Origin: Iocasia fonsfrigidae
GTDB taxonomy: Bacteria; Bacillota; Halanaerobiia; Halanaerobiales; DTU029
Direction of reading: 5' to 3'
NCBI RefSeq assembly: GCF_017751145.1
Contig: NZ_CP046640.1
Location: forward strand, 62,001 to 126,000
DNA length: 64,000 bases
Part shown: piece by piece, positions 3,629 through 43,267 of the stretch
How positions within the stretch are numbered: position 1 is the first letter of the stretch
Layout: every line of letters starts with the position of its first letter
Notes under the pieces: model-generated
Database searches by the model: none
Told to the model about the DNA's origin: nothing
What the model saw: only the letters and a program-made list of their open reading frames with translations
Translations under genes and position numbers: made by a program

Positions 3629-3716
3629 GGAGGGATGTCCGAATTGGCTAAGGAGCCGGACTTGAAATCCGGTGAAGCCGAAAGGTGTCTGGGTTCGAGT
3701 CCCAGTCCCTCCGCCA
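3629..3716 (+). tRNA. tRNA-Ser (anticodon TGA), prophage integration target
   Basis: This is a complete class II tRNA with encoded CCA. The acceptor is GGAGGGA (3629-3635) pairing with TCCCTCC. The anticodon stem CCGGA/TCCGG encloses loop CTTGAAA with anticodon TGA at 3663-3665. A variable arm, then the T arm CTGGG TTCGAGT CCCAG, follow. Bases 3657 onward are duplicated at the far end of the prophage, so the 3' part is supplied by the attachment sequence and the gene remains intact. Confidence 0.97.
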
Positions 3717-3732
3717 TTAATATGACAAGGAT
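3657..3732 (+). repeat. Left attachment site (attL)
   Basis: These 76 bases recur without mismatch at 43192-43267. The copy covers the tRNA-Ser from the anticodon stem to CCA plus 16 downstream bases. Recombination between the copies would release the phage and leave one intact tRNA-Ser. Confidence 0.95.
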
Positions 3733-3733
3733 G

Positions 3734-3764
3734 AGAACCTATCAGTTAGATAGGTTCTTTTTTT
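3734..3764 (+). terminator. Phage-borne terminator behind tRNA-Ser
   Basis: Stem AGAACCTATC / GATAGGTTCT with loop AGTTA is followed by a run of Ts on the plus strand. It lies just inside the phage, so it replaces the host terminator that integration displaced to 43285. The integrase stop codon (3746-3748) falls in its loop. Confidence 0.8.
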
Positions 3765-4936
3765 AATTTTTGAGGGTTTGTCGCCATATTGTCGCCATTT
3801 GAATTTTTTAAGGCTTTTGATATGCTGTCAACTGCTTCTTTTTTCATTTTATCAGTGACGTGCGAATAAGTATTTGCAGTAGTATTATATGTTGCATGGC
3901 CCATTATTTTTTGCAGGGTTTTCATCTTTGTCCCTTCCTGGAGGGAAAGGGTAGCAAAGGTATGTCTTAAGTCATGGAAACGGTAATTCTGGCTTATTTC
4001 AGCCTCTTTTAAGATATTATTAAATTTCTTAGTGATTCCCTGGGGGTTTCGAGGACTGCCATCGCCATAACAAAATACTAGATCATGCTTTTTATATTTT
4101 TTACCCAGCTGTAATTTTATTTCAGCCTGTTTACTTTTTAGTTTTTTTAGTATTTTTAAGACATTGTCTGGAATGCCCATCTCCCTTTTACTTGATTCAG
4201 TCTTTAGCTCTCTTAATTTCACCCCTTTATTTCTTAAATGCTGGGCCTGCTGCCTTACTTTTATTTCTCCTTTATCCCAGTTAATGTCTGACCATCTAAG
4301 TCCTAATAATTCTCCCCGTCTCATACCGGTATAGATTGCTGTTATTAATATTTCAAAGAACCAGGTCCCTTTAGCTATTTCAATTATTTTATTTATTTGT
4401 TCAGGAGAAAAGGTATTGAATTCTGGTTTTTTTACAGAAGGCGCATCAACATACTCACAGGGGTTATTCTCAATTATTTGCCATTTCGCAGCCACTTTAA
4501 GGGCACGCGATAATACTCTGTGGTGATATTGCACTGTACGAGCTGATAACCCACCTTCTCCATTAATACGGCCTTCTTTAAGCTTATAATTTTGATAACC
4601 CATGATATGTTTTGAATTAATTTCATTCATTCTTAGTTTACCTAGGGCTGGGATAAGGTGTTTTTCTACTATCATCTTATAACTAGCATAGGTCCTTGGT
4701 GCAAGGTCTGCACAATCTTCTTTTAGCCATTCTCTAAGGTGCTTCTCAAGAGTAATCTTTGATCCATCAATACTTGTCCCTTTTTTATATTCTTCAATCA
4801 ATTTTGCCTCTAGTATTTTAGCCTCTTTTTTTGTTTCTGCGGTACCGTATTTCCTTTTCCTTTTACCAGTGACAGGGTCATGACCAGCTTCAACCGATAT
4901 CTGCCATTTACCATTTCTTTTAATTATACTCATCAT
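3746..4936 (-). CDS. int: Tyrosine recombinase (phage integrase)
   Basis: This site-specific recombinase has 396 residues and catalyses insertion and excision at the tRNA-Ser repeats. An N-terminal arm-binding region of about 55 residues (KRNGKWQISVEAGHDP) is followed by a SAM-like core-binding domain (about 62-160) and the catalytic domain. The catalytic residues are visible: R206 in TGMRRGE, a Lys near 249, H321 and R324 in HDLRH, H347, and nucleophile Y357 in NTYSHV. The start ATG 4936 has AAAGGGGA upstream. It is transcribed toward attL, the standard arrangement. The 3' coding end contains two copies of TGTCGCCAT, possible arm-type binding sites. Confidence 0.95.
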   Translation of the reverse strand: MMSIIKRNGKWQISVEAGHDPVTGKRKRKYGTAETKKEAKILEAKLIEEYKKGTSIDGSKITLEKHLREWLKEDCADLAPRTYASYKMIVEKHLIPALGKLRMNEINSKHIMGYQNYKLKEGRINGEGGLSARTVQYHHRVLSRALKVAAKWQIIENNPCEYVDAPSVKKPEFNTFSPEQINKIIEIAKGTWFFEILITAIYTGMRRGELLGLRWSDINWDKGEIKVRQQAQHLRNKGVKLRELKTESSKREMGIPDNVLKILKKLKSKQAEIKLQLGKKYKKHDLVFCYGDGSPRNPQGITKKFNNILKEAEISQNYRFHDLRHTFATLSLQEGTKMKTLQKIMGHATYNTTANTYSHVTDKMKKEAVDSISKALKNSNGDNMATNPQKLKKEPI

Positions 4937-5242: not shown

Positions 5243-7411
5243 TTAATTTAATTCAAAATCCATAAACAAATAAAATTCGCTTTCATATTCCCCCGTCTTG
5301 TCAACTTCTAAGCTAATTGAATAATTATCATAATTCTTTTCTGCAACATATCCCCAATTTTCACGCTGGAAATTAAGCTCAGACCTTCCAATAGACCAAC
5401 CATCTTCCTTGAAATCAGATACAAATTTATATAAATCTTCTCTATTATAGTTTCCTTTTCCTAGAATTGATCTCAAAGCAACATCCATAGCTTGTACAGC
5501 CTGTCTTCTTCTGGAAAGAAATTTATTTGTAGAATCTATTTCTGAAAAATCTTCAGTTAAGCCAATTGACAATCGAAATTTATTTAAATCAGGGTTATTA
5601 TTTCCCAACTCATCCATAGGAGGATTATAAATTTTCATATCTACTTTAATGGAATTACCGAAAACAACACGATAAACCCCGCCGCCTGAATTTTTCCAAC
5701 CAGACGCTCTTAATTTTTCTATTTCTGTTTTTTCTAATTTAAGCCACGACCACCATTTTTCATCTATTCTATTGCTGTCTATGCCTTCCGTATCTTTTTG
5801 TATATTCTCTAAGGTGTAATTCCATTTTTCAACAAAAGGATCTCTAAAATCTTCAACACCATGAATTAATTTATATAAAGCAGACGATTCCTTGTTTTGG
5901 TCTACAATGTTATCAATTTCAACCAGGCCTTTATTAGTGTAAAGAGGATTATCTGTATTGTCTTCAACCACTTCCTGTTGTATTTGCTGGTTTGCTACTT
6001 CACTAGTGTTTTTATCATCAGTGTCGACAAACCACATTAATAAAAACACCCCTAACCATATTGAAGCAATAATTTTTCCTGTATTTTTAAATTTATTAGA
6101 CTTAAAAATAAAGAATATGCCTACAGGGGGAAGCATTAAGGTCAATAAAACAATTAATGTTTTTTTAAGATGGCCTCCTTTTTTAGCTCCTATTAAATAT
6201 TCCTCATCATTTGTCTTTTCTACTTGAGTAGTTTTTTCTTTTTTTATGTCTTCCGCCTTTTTATATTGCCAGACTTTATTGCAATCATTGCATTTTAGTG
6301 TAATTGATTTTATAAAGGGCGTAGATATAGTAGTTACTAAGGAAATAAAAGAAAAAACATAGCCTATAGGTCTATAAATAAGAAGAAACAATATAGAAAA
6401 AATCCAAAAGCCTATTATAATATGATGATTAGGTACTTCTTTGACATTATTTGATTGACATTTAGGGCAAGGCTCCCATGTAGTTTTACTCATATTTCCC
6501 TCTTTGTTACTTTTAGCGGTTTTTTCTTTTGTGATGTTATCGGCATATATTTCTTCGTTGATATTAGAATAATTATTATTAATTTCTACATTATCCATAA
6601 AAATAAAATTATCATTTTCTAATTTAGGATATATCCCGGTAGCTACTTCTCTGAATTGTCCATTTACTTCCTTATAATTAGTAATATAGCCCCAATTTTC
6701 ATTTTTAGTAGGGTTTATTTTCTGAGGAAATTTTTTAAATTTTTCTTTCACATTTTCCACATTTAAAGCTGGACAGATTTCATATTCTTTTATATTTTTC
6801 ATTAACTCGTGATAAATTTTGTCTTTATTAAAAACCCACTCGTTTGAATCATTAAATTGTCCATAAGACAACCATCCGCTTTGTGCACTATATCTATTAA
6901 AAGGCATATTTAATTTTTTACAACCCCAAAAATTCATATTATAATCTTCTTCTCCAAAGCAGTATCTTTGTTGATCATATGATTCTACCTTCTCTTTATA
7001 ACAATTTAAAGGCCTATAAATATCACTTTTTGAAACTGCTTTTCCATCTAAATAAAATTCGGCTGTTTTCCAGTTGGATATTAAATCCATCAAATTAAAT
7101 ATATAATTTATTTCTGTAAGTGGTATAGTAACGCTATGCTCTATGTCCTTGTCCTTTCCTTCTGTACTATATGAATCAAAATTACTAGCTATATCAATAG
7201 CGCGTTTATAATTTCTAGAGCTACTGTATCTAAATTTAATTGTAATGCTTTTATTTTCATCATTAGTAGTTTTTTCATTTAGTTTATCTTTAGCTATAAT
7301 TGGTTTACCGCATTTTGAACAAAACTTATCATTTTCATTAACCTCATTACCACACTCTGGACAATAAATAATTATCACTCCTTTTTGTCGTATTTTATCG
7401 AAATGTGTCAA
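5243..7411 (-). CDS. Large zinc-ribbon membrane protein of the lysogeny module
   Basis: This 722-residue protein has unknown function. The N terminus carries a double CxxC zinc ribbon (YCPECG...FCSKCG), followed by a long soluble region. A second CPxC...CNDC ribbon is interrupted by hydrophobic helices (HHIIIGFWIFSILFLLIY and following). Further membrane segments (TLIVLLTLMLPPVGIFFIF; IIASIWLGVFLLMWFV) precede a C-terminal soluble domain of about 240 residues. The TTG at 7411 has no RBS. An AAAGGAG at about 7379-7385 lies just before the zinc ribbon, so translation may start at an AUU codon near 7372 or 7369. Lying between integrase and ImmA, it is probably expressed in the lysogen. An exclusion or defence role is possible but speculative. 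Confidence 0.75.
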   Translation of the reverse strand: MTHFDKIRQKGVIIIYCPECGNEVNENDKFCSKCGKPIIAKDKLNEKTTNDENKSITIKFRYSSSRNYKRAIDIASNFDSYSTEGKDKDIEHSVTIPLTEINYIFNLMDLISNWKTAEFYLDGKAVSKSDIYRPLNCYKEKVESYDQQRYCFGEEDYNMNFWGCKKLNMPFNRYSAQSGWLSYGQFNDSNEWVFNKDKIYHELMKNIKEYEICPALNVENVKEKFKKFPQKINPTKNENWGYITNYKEVNGQFREVATGIYPKLENDNFIFMDNVEINNNYSNINEEIYADNITKEKTAKSNKEGNMSKTTWEPCPKCQSNNVKEVPNHHIIIGFWIFSILFLLIYRPIGYVFSFISLVTTISTPFIKSITLKCNDCNKVWQYKKAEDIKKEKTTQVEKTNDEEYLIGAKKGGHLKKTLIVLLTLMLPPVGIFFIFKSNKFKNTGKIIASIWLGVFLLMWFVDTDDKNTSEVANQQIQQEVVEDNTDNPLYTNKGLVEIDNIVDQNKESSALYKLIHGVEDFRDPFVEKWNYTLENIQKDTEGIDSNRIDEKWWSWLKLEKTEIEKLRASGWKNSGGGVYRVVFGNSIKVDMKIYNPPMDELGNNNPDLNKFRLSIGLTEDFSEIDSTNKFLSRRRQAVQAMDVALRSILGKGNYNREDLYKFVSDFKEDGWSIGRSELNFQRENWGYVAEKNYDNYSISLEVDKTGEYESEFYLFMDFELN

Positions 7412-7431
7412 AACATATGTTCGCTAAATAA

Positions 7432-7773
7432 TCAAAAATAATTAGCAGCTTCCATGACTGCCTTTGCAAAATCGTCTGCCTCATTTTCTATAGTAGAATA
7501 CTGCATGTCCAGTCCTATGAAATAACCAACATCAGGCATGTCATAAAGTATATGCTCTACTTCATGTAAGTACACCTCCTTTTGCATTTCTGTTGAAAGA
7601 TTTTTATTAATAATTATTATGTAAGAATCAAATCTAGATTTATAAACAAAGCCCCAGAGGCCTGATTTAAGAGCGTATAATCTATGAAATATATTATTAG
7701 ACCGTGCTATTTGTTGTAACCCTATATAAGCCCGTTGTAACGATGTACGGATATTTTTAGCATCTTGGTTCAA
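7432..7773 (-). CDS. ImmA/IrrE-type metallopeptidase
   Basis: This protein of 113 residues contains the zinc motif HEVEH (residues 70-74) followed by a probable third ligand E98 in ENEAD, the pattern of ImmA/IrrE (Peptidase_M78) proteins. Known relatives cleave a helix-turn-helix repressor to relieve immunity after DNA damage or a cell-cell signal. It lies two genes downstream of an ImmR-like repressor on the same strand, the expected pairing. The start is TTG 7773 with GGGGAG nine bases upstream. It is shorter at the N terminus than some family members, but the catalytic core is complete. Confidence 0.8.
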   Translation of the reverse strand: MNQDAKNIRTSLQRAYIGLQQIARSNNIFHRLYALKSGLWGFVYKSRFDSYIIIINKNLSTEMQKEVYLHEVEHILYDMPDVGYFIGLDMQYSTIENEADDFAKAVMEAANYF

Positions 7774-11991: not shown

Positions 11992-12180
11992 ATGGGAACA
12001 TGTAGAGTATGTGGTGTTGAAACCAATGGCACCATCTGCCGTAGGTGTGAGGAGCATAATAGGCAAGAATGGTGTAGAGATTATGAAAGGCGGGCTGTAG
12101 ATTCTCCTCAGAGAAACAGTCTGGCTGGTCAATATAGGAGAGACATTATGAGGAAAGGGGGCCTTAATCGTGGCTGCTAA
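11992..12180 (+). CDS. Zinc-ribbon small protein, 62 aa
   Basis: The sequence shows CRVC...CRRC in the first 28 residues, a single zinc ribbon, followed by a basic tail. Start ATG 11992 has AAGGAGG. Its end overlaps the start of the recombinase gene by 11 bases, so it is probably co-expressed with it; a DNA- or RNA-binding accessory role is only a guess. Confidence 0.65.
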   Translation: MGTCRVCGVETNGTICRRCEEHNRQEWCRDYERRAVDSPQRNSLAGQYRRDIMRKGGLNRGC

Positions 12181-13075
12181 TGAACAGCAATTACAAGCAG
12201 TGCCTAATCAACAGCAGGTATTAAGTTTTAACCAAAAAGAACTAGAAACTATTCGCCGTACTGTGGCCAAAAATGCTACTGATGATGAATTCAGGATGTT
12301 TATGCACCTGGCTCAGACATACCAGTTAGACCCTTTTAATAAAGAAATATGGTTTATCAAGTATGCTAAAAAAGGTCAAAACCCTAAAGATGTTGAGCCT
12401 ACTATTATGACTAGTAGGGATGGTTATTTAAAAATAGCGGATAGACACCCGGAATATGATGGACTATCTTCGGATGTAGTACGGAAAAATGATGTATTTA
12501 AACGGACAATGGACGGAGTAGAGCATGAATATAGTTCAGATAGAGGACAGATTATTGGAGCATATGCTTTGGTATACAGAAAAGATAGAAAATATCCAAT
12601 ATACGTCTTTGCCCCATTTAATGAATACAAAGGTAATGCCAAAATCTGGAATAATTATCCCAGTGCTATGATATTAAAGGTCGCAGAATCAATGGCTTTA
12701 AAAAGGGCTTTTACTGTTTCTGGATTAGTCAGCAAAGAAGAGATGGATGTACAAAGTGAACCTAATGATTCAAATGGTCCTATAGATATAACTCCGGCTG
12801 ACCAAGGAAATGAAAAATTAAGAGAATTAACAGAGAGAGAAAAAGAAATAGCAGAGTTGGTTGCAGGTGATAAAGGGTATAAACAAATAGTAATAGATTG
12901 TTTAGAATACAATTTCCCTGGGATAAATAACACAAATAAGAAAGTATCTATAAACGACTTAGATAAGGCGGCCTATAAACAACTGGTTCAAACACTCCAG
13001 AATGCACATGAGGCAAATGCAGAACCGCCGGATGAAGAAGATGATCCGTTAGTTGAATTTGAAGTGCCGTTTTAA
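12170..13075 (+). CDS. bet: Phage recombination protein Bet (Red-beta type annealase)
   Basis: This single-strand annealing recombinase has 301 residues. The conserved core (about 15-195) includes DEFRMFMHLAQTYQLDPFNKEI, PTIMTSRDGYLKIAD and IWNNYPSAMILKVAESMALK, characteristic of the Bet family. The C-terminal third is acidic and ends DDPLVEFEVPF, which resembles the protein-interaction tip of SSB proteins. The GTG start at 12170 follows AAGGGG. No matching exonuclease is recognisable nearby, although the DUF1064 protein at 17498 has a nuclease-like pattern. It probably serves recombination-dependent replication and repair. Confidence 0.88.
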   Translation: MAANEQQLQAVPNQQQVLSFNQKELETIRRTVAKNATDDEFRMFMHLAQTYQLDPFNKEIWFIKYAKKGQNPKDVEPTIMTSRDGYLKIADRHPEYDGLSSDVVRKNDVFKRTMDGVEHEYSSDRGQIIGAYALVYRKDRKYPIYVFAPFNEYKGNAKIWNNYPSAMILKVAESMALKRAFTVSGLVSKEEMDVQSEPNDSNGPIDITPADQGNEKLRELTEREKEIAELVAGDKGYKQIVIDCLEYNFPGINNTNKKVSINDLDKAAYKQLVQTLQNAHEANAEPPDEEDDPLVEFEVPF

Positions 13076-13083
13076 GTTGACAA

Positions 13084-13115
13084 CCTGCCCTGGAGTCAAG
13101 GAAAACCAGGGTAGG
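13084..13115 (+). other. Hairpin upstream of the tRNA-like RNA
   Basis: CCTGCCCTGG (13084-13093) pairs fully (one G-U) with CCAGGGTAGG (13106-13115) around a 12-base loop. Its 5' arm could also pair with the CCAGGG of the tRNA-like acceptor at 13124-13129, so two mutually exclusive folds are possible. Confidence 0.65.
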
Positions 13116-13121
13116 ATATAT

Positions 13122-13279
13122 GGCCAGGGTGGCGGAATAGGCAGACATGGCTACCTTATTGAGGCTCCATTACGACTTAGTTGAAAAATACTAAGGTTCG
13201 GGGATACATAGTTGACTATAAGATGTCAAAAATAGAGTTACTAGTGCTCTATTGCAGGTTCGAATCCTGCCCCTGGCCA
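13122..13279 (+). ncRNA. Class II tRNA-like RNA with an inserted segment (Leu-like)
   Basis: The ends form a tRNA acceptor (GGCCAGGG 13122-13129 with CCCTGGCC 13271-13278). The T arm is canonical (GCAGG, TTCGAAT, CCTGC; 13254-13270). Before it lie a long variable-arm hairpin (AATAGAG/CTCTATT, 13231-13253) and a 5-bp stem TTGAC/GTCAA around the 8-base loop TATAAGAT (13212-13229), placed like an anticodon arm. The 5' part carries a Leu-like D-arm start (TGGCGGAATAGGCAGAC) with a poorly paired stem. About 60 extra bases with two more hairpins then intervene. No CCA is encoded. It may be an aberrant or repurposed tRNA-Leu, a pseudo-tRNA or a structured leader for the next gene. Anticodon identity is uncertain. 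Confidence 0.55.
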
Positions 13280-13319
13280 CTTAAAAAAGGGATAACACCT
13301 GATATCAGGAGGAATATAG

Positions 13320-14309
13320 ATGCAACTAAGAAATAGATTGGTGAAAGCAGATTTTTGGACAGATACAGAATTGGCTCGAAAACTCCCTGCAATGGGTAGG
13401 ATGATGTACCAGGGATTGTGGCAGCTGGCAGAAGATTCAGGAGTAATAGAGGCAGATCCAGTTGCTTACAAGATGATTCTTTTTCCGCTAGATAACATTG
13501 ATATAGATGAAATAGAAAATTGGACTAATATACTCAAAGAGTTAGGAAAACTTATACCCTATAGTTTTCAAAAAAAAGACTACTATTATATAAAAAACTT
13601 TCATAAGCACCAATCATTAAGAAGTCCAGGAAAACCAGAATTGCCTCTTCCTAAATGGATTGAATATATACCTAATCCAAAACCTTATCAGTCAGGTGGT
13701 TATATTATTAATTATGAAATAATGCCTGGTGAATATGAAGGAATACAAACCGTAGGAAATGTTGATGAAGCCTTATATAAAGGTAACGGTGACCATAAAG
13801 AAGCCCTAGAGGAACCACAAGAAAACCATAAGGATACCGTAAGGAAACCGTACGGGTACCATAGCCCAACCAATAAGAATAAGAAAGAGAATAAGAATAT
13901 AGAATTAGAAAAAGATAATATATATAGTCCTGCAAAAAAAGAGCAGGACAGTGCATCTGAAAAAATACCTTATGCTGAAATAGTGGATTACCTTAATCAG
14001 AAATGCGGAACCCAATACCGGAACAGCACTAAGAAAACTCAGGAATTAATTCGAGCTAGGTGGAATGAAGGGTTCAAACTTGAAGCTTTCAAGACTGTGA
14101 TAGATAAAAAAAGTACAGAATGGCTCAATGATGAAAATGCTAAGTATCTCAGGCCGGTTACACTTTTTGGCACTAAGTTTGAGAGCTATCTAAACCAATT
14201 AACAGCGAAAAACAAATCCAGTCCAGGGAAGACCAACGTTATCAATTTCGACAAAAACATGACTCCTGAAGAGCAGGAGGAGTACTATAGGTCAAAAGGC
14301 TACCGCTGA
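13320..14309 (+). CDS. Phage replication initiator / replisome organiser
   Basis: This protein has 329 residues. The N-terminal winged-helix-like region (RLVKADFWTDTELARKLPAMG) resembles phage replisome organisers. A charged linker (about 165-205) leads to a C-terminal domain (AEIVDYLNQKCGTQYRNSTKK through FGTKFESYLNQ), which matches the conserved phage C-terminal domain Phg_2220_C found in DnaD-like replication proteins. It probably binds the phage origin and loads the host helicase. ATG 13320 has AGGAGG. An origin may lie within or near the gene, but I see no clear iterons. Confidence 0.78.
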   Translation: MQLRNRLVKADFWTDTELARKLPAMGRMMYQGLWQLAEDSGVIEADPVAYKMILFPLDNIDIDEIENWTNILKELGKLIPYSFQKKDYYYIKNFHKHQSLRSPGKPELPLPKWIEYIPNPKPYQSGGYIINYEIMPGEYEGIQTVGNVDEALYKGNGDHKEALEEPQENHKDTVRKPYGYHSPTNKNKKENKNIELEKDNIYSPAKKEQDSASEKIPYAEIVDYLNQKCGTQYRNSTKKTQELIRARWNEGFKLEAFKTVIDKKSTEWLNDENAKYLRPVTLFGTKFESYLNQLTAKNKSSPGKTNVINFDKNMTPEEQEEYYRSKGYR

Positions 14310-43191: not shown

Positions 43192-43267
43192 CGGACTTGA
43201 AATCCGGTGAAGCCGAAAGGTGTCTGGGTTCGAGTCCCAGTCCCTCCGCCATTAATATGACAAGGAT
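43192..43267 (+). repeat. Right attachment site (attR) with tRNA-Ser 3' fragment
   Basis: This is the perfect 76-bp copy of attL. It holds the tRNA-Ser from the anticodon stem onward but no 5' half or promoter, so it is a pseudo-tRNA and not a functional gene. An open frame running across it is meaningless. Confidence 0.95.

Follow-up and report, generated by a model that had tools for sequence, protein, structure and literature searches.

A prophage of Iocasia fonsfrigidae encodes an RNA (13122-13278, plus strand) that keeps the outer body of a tRNA and carries a structured insert in place of the anticodon. Coordinates refer to the window, that is, the whole stretch of 64,000 nucleotides that was analyzed. 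Acceptor, D arm, T arm, and the A15-U48 pair, which make up the tRNA core, are all in place, while the middle part does not qualify as an anticodon arm. With about as much confidence as doubt, we read this molecule as a phage RNA on a leucine-type tRNA body, in which a structured, fast-evolving insert replaces the anticodon domain. It would be a natural 'tRNA scaffold', processed by the host, stable, and possibly leucylated. The same design was found in well over a hundred further viral contigs, which makes it look like a type of phage RNA that has been overlooked and not like a broken tRNA.

The RNA lies in a prophage of ~39.6 kb, the ends of which are marked by 76-bp direct repeats at tRNA-Ser(UGA) and by an integrase gene (Table 1). 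It stands between two co-oriented early genes, recT and a gene with the Phg_2220_C terminus. The first-pass annotation, made from the letters of the window, had placed it next to a recombinase gene, now identified as recT. It had also described the acceptor, the T arm, the long variable arm, and the 5-bp anticodon-like stem with its eight-base loop, preceded by two hairpins, and our folds recovered all of these parts.

Table 1. Features of the tRNA-bodied RNA and of the prophage that carries it.
Feature	Position	Strand	Evidence
Left att repeat, covering the 3' terminus of tRNA-Ser(UGA)	3657..3732	+	76-bp exact repeat
Phage integrase gene	3746..4936	-	Pfam Phage_integrase, 1.3e-31
recT gene	12170..13075	+	Pfam RecT, 6.8e-39
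Upstream 10-bp hairpin resembling the acceptor ends	13084..13115	+	joint fold with the window RNA, both stable
tRNA-bodied RNA: 8-bp acceptor, Leu-type D arm, long insert, T arm	13122..13278	+	sequence, folds, class covariance model
Acceptor stem, 5' strand GGCCAGGG	13122..13129	+	pairing with 13271-13278, probability 0.96-1.0
U8 followed by the Leu-type D arm, the stem of which closes with a bulged AUG	13130..13151	+	class-model alignment
Insert hairpin 1, ATGG..CCAT enclosing CCTT..GAGG	13147..13170	+	fold of the middle
Insert hairpin 2, CTTAGT/ACTAAG	13176..13195	+	folds
Anticodon-like arm TTGAC-TATAAGAT-GTCAA, 5 bp, 8-nt loop UAUAAGAU without U33	13212..13229	+	folds
Long variable-arm-like hairpin, last base U48	13231..13253	+	folds; U48 rule of the RNA set
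T arm GCAGGTTCGAATCCTGC, loop TTCGAAT	13254..13270	+	sequence
Acceptor 3' strand CCCTGGCC (13271-13278) and tail ACTT	13271..13282	+	sequence
Downstream gene with conserved phage C-terminus Phg_2220_C	13320..14309	+	Pfam, 2.9e-28
Right att repeat	43192..43267	+	76-bp exact repeat

The D arm of the RNA (TGGCGGAATAGGCAGAC, starting at 13130) is identical to that of the ordinary tRNA-Leu genes of its relatives. It has G18G19 and A15-U48, and its stem is imperfect: when aligned to the class model, GCG pairs with C-(AUG bulge)-GC. The acceptor, within the 7-8 bp range, closes directly on a consensus T arm. The D and T arms are separated by ~107 nt, in which several hairpins are found and a normal anticodon arm is absent; ~60 nt lie between the D arm and the anticodon-like arm. 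No CCA is encoded, and the tail reads A-C-T-T, as compared with mostly A-C-(A/T)-A in the RNA set described below.

Folding of the whole RNA yielded -54.4 kcal/mol (z = -3.1). The middle folded alone was no more stable than its shuffles (z = -1.3), and the excess stability of the whole comes mostly from the tRNA arms. The combination of T arm, 7-bp acceptor, U8, A14, and GG occurs twice in the window, namely in this RNA and in tRNA-Ser. A chance product is excluded, because this combination was found in none of 60 resampled 64-kb windows and none of 200 shuffles folded as well as the RNA. ARAGORN called neither this RNA as a tRNA nor any tmRNA in the window, and the Rfam tRNA family (RF00005) gave no match to the RNA at the gathering cut-off. 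The best weak Rfam match was tRNA-Sec (RF01852), with 27.3 bits against a gathering score of 47, confined to 13195-13278.

For the upstream hairpin, the first-pass annotation had proposed a competition with the acceptor that yields two alternative folds, and it had considered a regulatory RNA for the initiator gene. The 10-bp hairpin was confirmed, but the competition was rejected. In the joint fold, at equilibrium, both structures coexist with probabilities of 0.96-1.0, and the probability of cross-pairing is negligible (~1e-8). Neither this fold nor the RecT relatives that lack the RNA support regulation of the gene through competing structures. The arms of the hairpin, CCTGCCCTGG and CCAGGGTAGG, are similar to the RNA's own 3' and 5' ends, as if they came from a lost tandem copy.

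Close relatives of the RNA were sought in several ways. ARAGORN and a custom scan detected no tRNA-like element with the RecT relatives in the host's class (L065 apart) or with the relatives of the Phg_2220_C gene (L032, L033). The insert had no DNA relatives in 199 related genomes or in annotated phages. No element with the same acceptor was present in the genome collection, and no viral contig had GACAT following the D arm. Among 59 genomes of the host's class, the Leu-type pattern occurred only in the genome of the window itself. Two more tRNA-like elements that lack a normal anticodon arm were observed in other genomes of this class (L003, 1435-1524; L023, 1446-1524).

In viral contigs, the design recurs many times. 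We carried out two scans. The first required 61-121 nt between a Leu-type D arm and a T arm, and the second required 34-64 nt between a generic D arm and a T arm. Both matched at least 120 contigs, and tandem ordinary tRNAs were removed before counting. This resulted in at least 155 non-redundant viral elements, comprising at least 71 of the Leu type (106-162 nt) and at least 84 of the generic type. A control search, in which a Ser-type D arm took the place of the Leu-type one, returned 2 genuine elements. A narrower Leu-type pattern was applied to 84,980 species genomes and gave 27 matches, several of which were tandem tRNAs; it gave none in 398 genomes of the host's own phylum, its gap limit being one base too short for the window RNA itself. 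A canonical anticodon arm was found next to the D arm in 1 of 84 generic elements and anywhere in 5 of 71 Leu-type elements, among the matches listed. Rfam's tRNA family scores many of the viral members above its cut-off; therefore, parts of the set may be filed in databases as odd tRNAs.

The tRNA core is under selection in many other phages. At positions outside the search pattern, 84 viral and genomic Leu-type elements (among the matches listed) showed U48 in 83, A73 in 66, U-1 in 59, and C74 in 73 cases; the generic elements had C48 in 81 of 84 (also among the matches listed). Acceptor pairing, likewise outside the pattern, reached at least 6 of 7 pairs in 79 of the 93 non-tandem Leu-type matches listed. 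An alignment of 69 elements, pre-filtered for acceptors with at least 6 of 7 pairs, had 99% of its cells paired, with 242 doubly changed stem cells as compared with 56 in shuffles. The generic type was also inspected for the alanine identity pair G3:U70, and this candidate was dropped, the pair being present in just 7 of 84 elements among the matches listed. The acceptor AGTCAGG is common to 27 of the 71 Leu-type viral elements (L211 to L329, among the matches listed) and accompanies very different inserts, as if inserts had been exchanged on a common body. Some phages that carry a Leu-type element also have ARAGORN calls of the type tRNA-???, with two-base anticodons and short anticodon loops (L216:11915-11985, L252:870-939, L299:5541-5612, and L313:4628-4698); such a call lies directly beside the Leu-type element in L216 and L252.

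A class covariance model was built from the 69 elements, with the window RNA left out. It matched 13121-13282 at 56.3 bits (E = 1.6e-13) and the ordinary tRNA-Ser at 35.9 bits, although it also matches ordinary tRNA-Leu and is not specific against it. For this reason, the membership of the window RNA rests on the body together with the long insert, and not on the score alone. The alignment to the model assigned it an 8-bp acceptor, U-1, A73, the trailer C-U-U, and a 3-nt bulge in the D stem.

The inserts diverge fast across the set. Within subfamilies, their helices show compensatory changes: GTCAACT-GGTTGAC in one member of the L326/L327 pair becomes AATAACT-GGTTATT in the other, and further cases are L219/L352, L233/L340, and L264/L304. 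The evidence for selection on the insert thus comes from other members, the window insert being without relatives and having the unremarkable z value given above. A common pseudoknot across the Leu-type inserts was considered and is not claimed, since 15% reached p < 0.05 with modestly raised means, and the window RNA gave p = 0.6. GAGTA..TACTC occurs in the inserts of both L217:7291-7404 and L277:4099-4210, where a second helix is interleaved with it (TTGTAAT/ATTACAG and AGCTTT/AAAGCT, respectively), a possible conserved pseudoknot.

Inspection of the gene neighborhoods revealed Erf, RecT, Bet, exonuclease VIII, DnaC, DnaB, helicases, ParB, and methyltransferases next to the elements, as well as some structural genes. 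Some elements lie inside phage tRNA arrays. In Hafnia phage yong2, an unannotated generic-type element stands just after cI, at the start of an early operon. Among annotated phage records, the L114 element was found only in this phage, and it was not found in E. coli genomes or plasmids. The L235, L144, and L345 elements were not found in annotated phage records. L345 belongs to a Clostridiaceae genome, and its Leu-type element (6065-6187) is flanked by a radical SAM gene on one side and a DUF2828/DUF7788/vWA gene (6230-7723) on the other. The latter matches a PHROGs 'RNA-binding protein' family (1.2e-129), and the two may form an RNA-protein pair.

With these results in hand, we propose that host RNase P and 3' tRNA-processing enzymes would cut the window RNA out of the early transcript. 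CCA would then be added, and the product would gain the stability of a tRNA and might be charged with leucine as a tRNA is. The function would reside in the insert, through binding to a protein or an RNA; it could, for instance, be a decoy for a host defense directed at tRNA. E. coli LeuRS depends on A73, A15-U48, G18G19, and A20a, and it charges tRNA-Leu without the anticodon and variable arms (PMC9976931). The Leu-type set keeps these elements; the search pattern itself had specified A15, G18G19, and A20a, whereas U48 and A73 were outside it. Leucylation of members that have no anticodon is a concrete prediction. The bulged D stem and the 8-bp acceptor, which set the window RNA apart from most of the set, may lower its use by LeuRS.

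The position of the RNA would also fit another role, in which the tRNA body does no more than mark where RNase P and RNase Z cut, so that the recT message is parted from the downstream one, and the insert is filler. The two flanking early genes are co-oriented, neither a promoter nor a terminator was found near the RNA, the Leu-type elements are mostly sense to both neighbors (42 of 65 cases), and U-1 and A73 are common in the set. We nevertheless regard this role as unlikely; the compensatory changes in the inserts of several subfamilies are unexpected for filler, and an ordinary tRNA would cut equally well.

It is also conceivable, if rather improbable, that the RNA as a whole occupies a host enzyme that acts on tRNA, either an anti-phage tRNase or a tRNA-processing enzyme, while offering no cleavable anticodon loop. 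Phage tRNAs counter tRNA-cleaving defenses (PMC11555353), the tRNA-like part of YrlA has been proposed as an inhibitor of an anticodon nuclease (PMC7790460), and the fast divergence of the inserts would agree with such a contest. Cas12a3 holds the T arm, the acceptor, and the tail, and viral countermeasures against it are said to be needed, yet unknown (PMC12851939). However, no defense target is known for the window RNA, and a decoy role alone leaves the preference for the Leu type, as opposed to the 2 elements of the Ser-type control, unexplained.

The first-pass annotation had offered an unusual tRNA-Leu and a tRNA mimic as further readings. The former, a tRNA-Leu that is in decay or bears an intron and that still serves, or used to serve, in translation, now appears very unlikely. 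It could draw on the Leu-type D arm, the 5-bp anticodon-like stem containing UAA, and the long variable arm, as well as on a few relatives that look like a tRNA-Leu split in the anticodon loop. In these (L213:2869-3008 and L293:3272-3404), ~40-50 nt are inserted into the loop while the other arms are normal, and the insertions are possible small introns. The loop of the window RNA, however, has 8 nt and no U33, and the intact acceptor and T stems speak against decay. Excising pieces of at least 25 nt from the middle yielded tRNA calls no more often than in shuffled middles. To our knowledge, the introns of bacterial tRNAs are group I introns, which are much longer than the insert of the window RNA. 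Cases of such introns have been described (PMC8450103). The suggestion of a tRNA mimic, on the other hand, pointed in the right direction, with a real tRNA body and a wider phage RNA set of the same design.

That the RNA resembles Y RNA and partners a Ro60-type protein, a reading to which the gene pair in L345 would be the pointer, is most improbable, as a PF05731 search of the window's own genome found no TROVE gene, phrog_850 matched only 1 of the 69 downstream proteins scanned, and YrlA has a permuted layout in which its 5' and 3' ends make up the Ro-binding stem (PMC8394870), whereas the ends of the window RNA form an acceptor next to the T arm.

The wider conclusion, which we consider evenly balanced between acceptance and rejection, is that of a widespread and undescribed class of phage RNAs. 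Its members would use a leucine-type tRNA body, host-processed and possibly leucylated, as a natural scaffold for diverse structured inserts, and the window RNA would be a member with an 8-bp acceptor, located in an early recombination/replication operon. No earlier description of such a set was found in the literature searched, most subscription journals being outside its reach; there, the use of a tRNA body as an RNA-carrying module is described as an engineering method only. If this is confirmed, phages would employ the tRNA body as a module that delivers other RNAs and keeps them stable, and an abundant group of viral non-coding RNAs would be skipped by tRNA finders or filed as odd tRNAs. 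The corresponding predictions are processed ends, CCA, and leucylation without an anticodon, with a possible link to anti-phage defense directed at tRNA.

Among known systems, the engineered tRNA scaffold (PMC3753655) also keeps the acceptor stem and the D and T arms and has other RNA in the place of the anticodon arm, but it was made for RNA expression in E. coli, whereas the window RNA is natural, of phage origin, and of the Leu type. YrlA and related bacterial Y RNAs, with 90-150 nt, mimic the D, T, and acceptor arms and lack an anticodon arm; unlike the window RNA, they are tied to Ro60 (PMC8394870). tmRNA has tRNA-like ends flanking a long non-anticodon middle, but it contains a tag reading frame, and the genome has its own tmRNA elsewhere (L064:1182-1537). 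The tRNA-Tyr of T5-like phages, which acts against retron-Eco7, is likewise a phage-borne tRNA body with a possible anti-defense role; its anticodon arm is normal, however, and changing the anticodon abolished the effect (PMC11555353). tRNA-Sec shares the 8-bp acceptor and the 5-bp T stem, although the window RNA stays below the gathering score of this family and matches it only over its 3' part.
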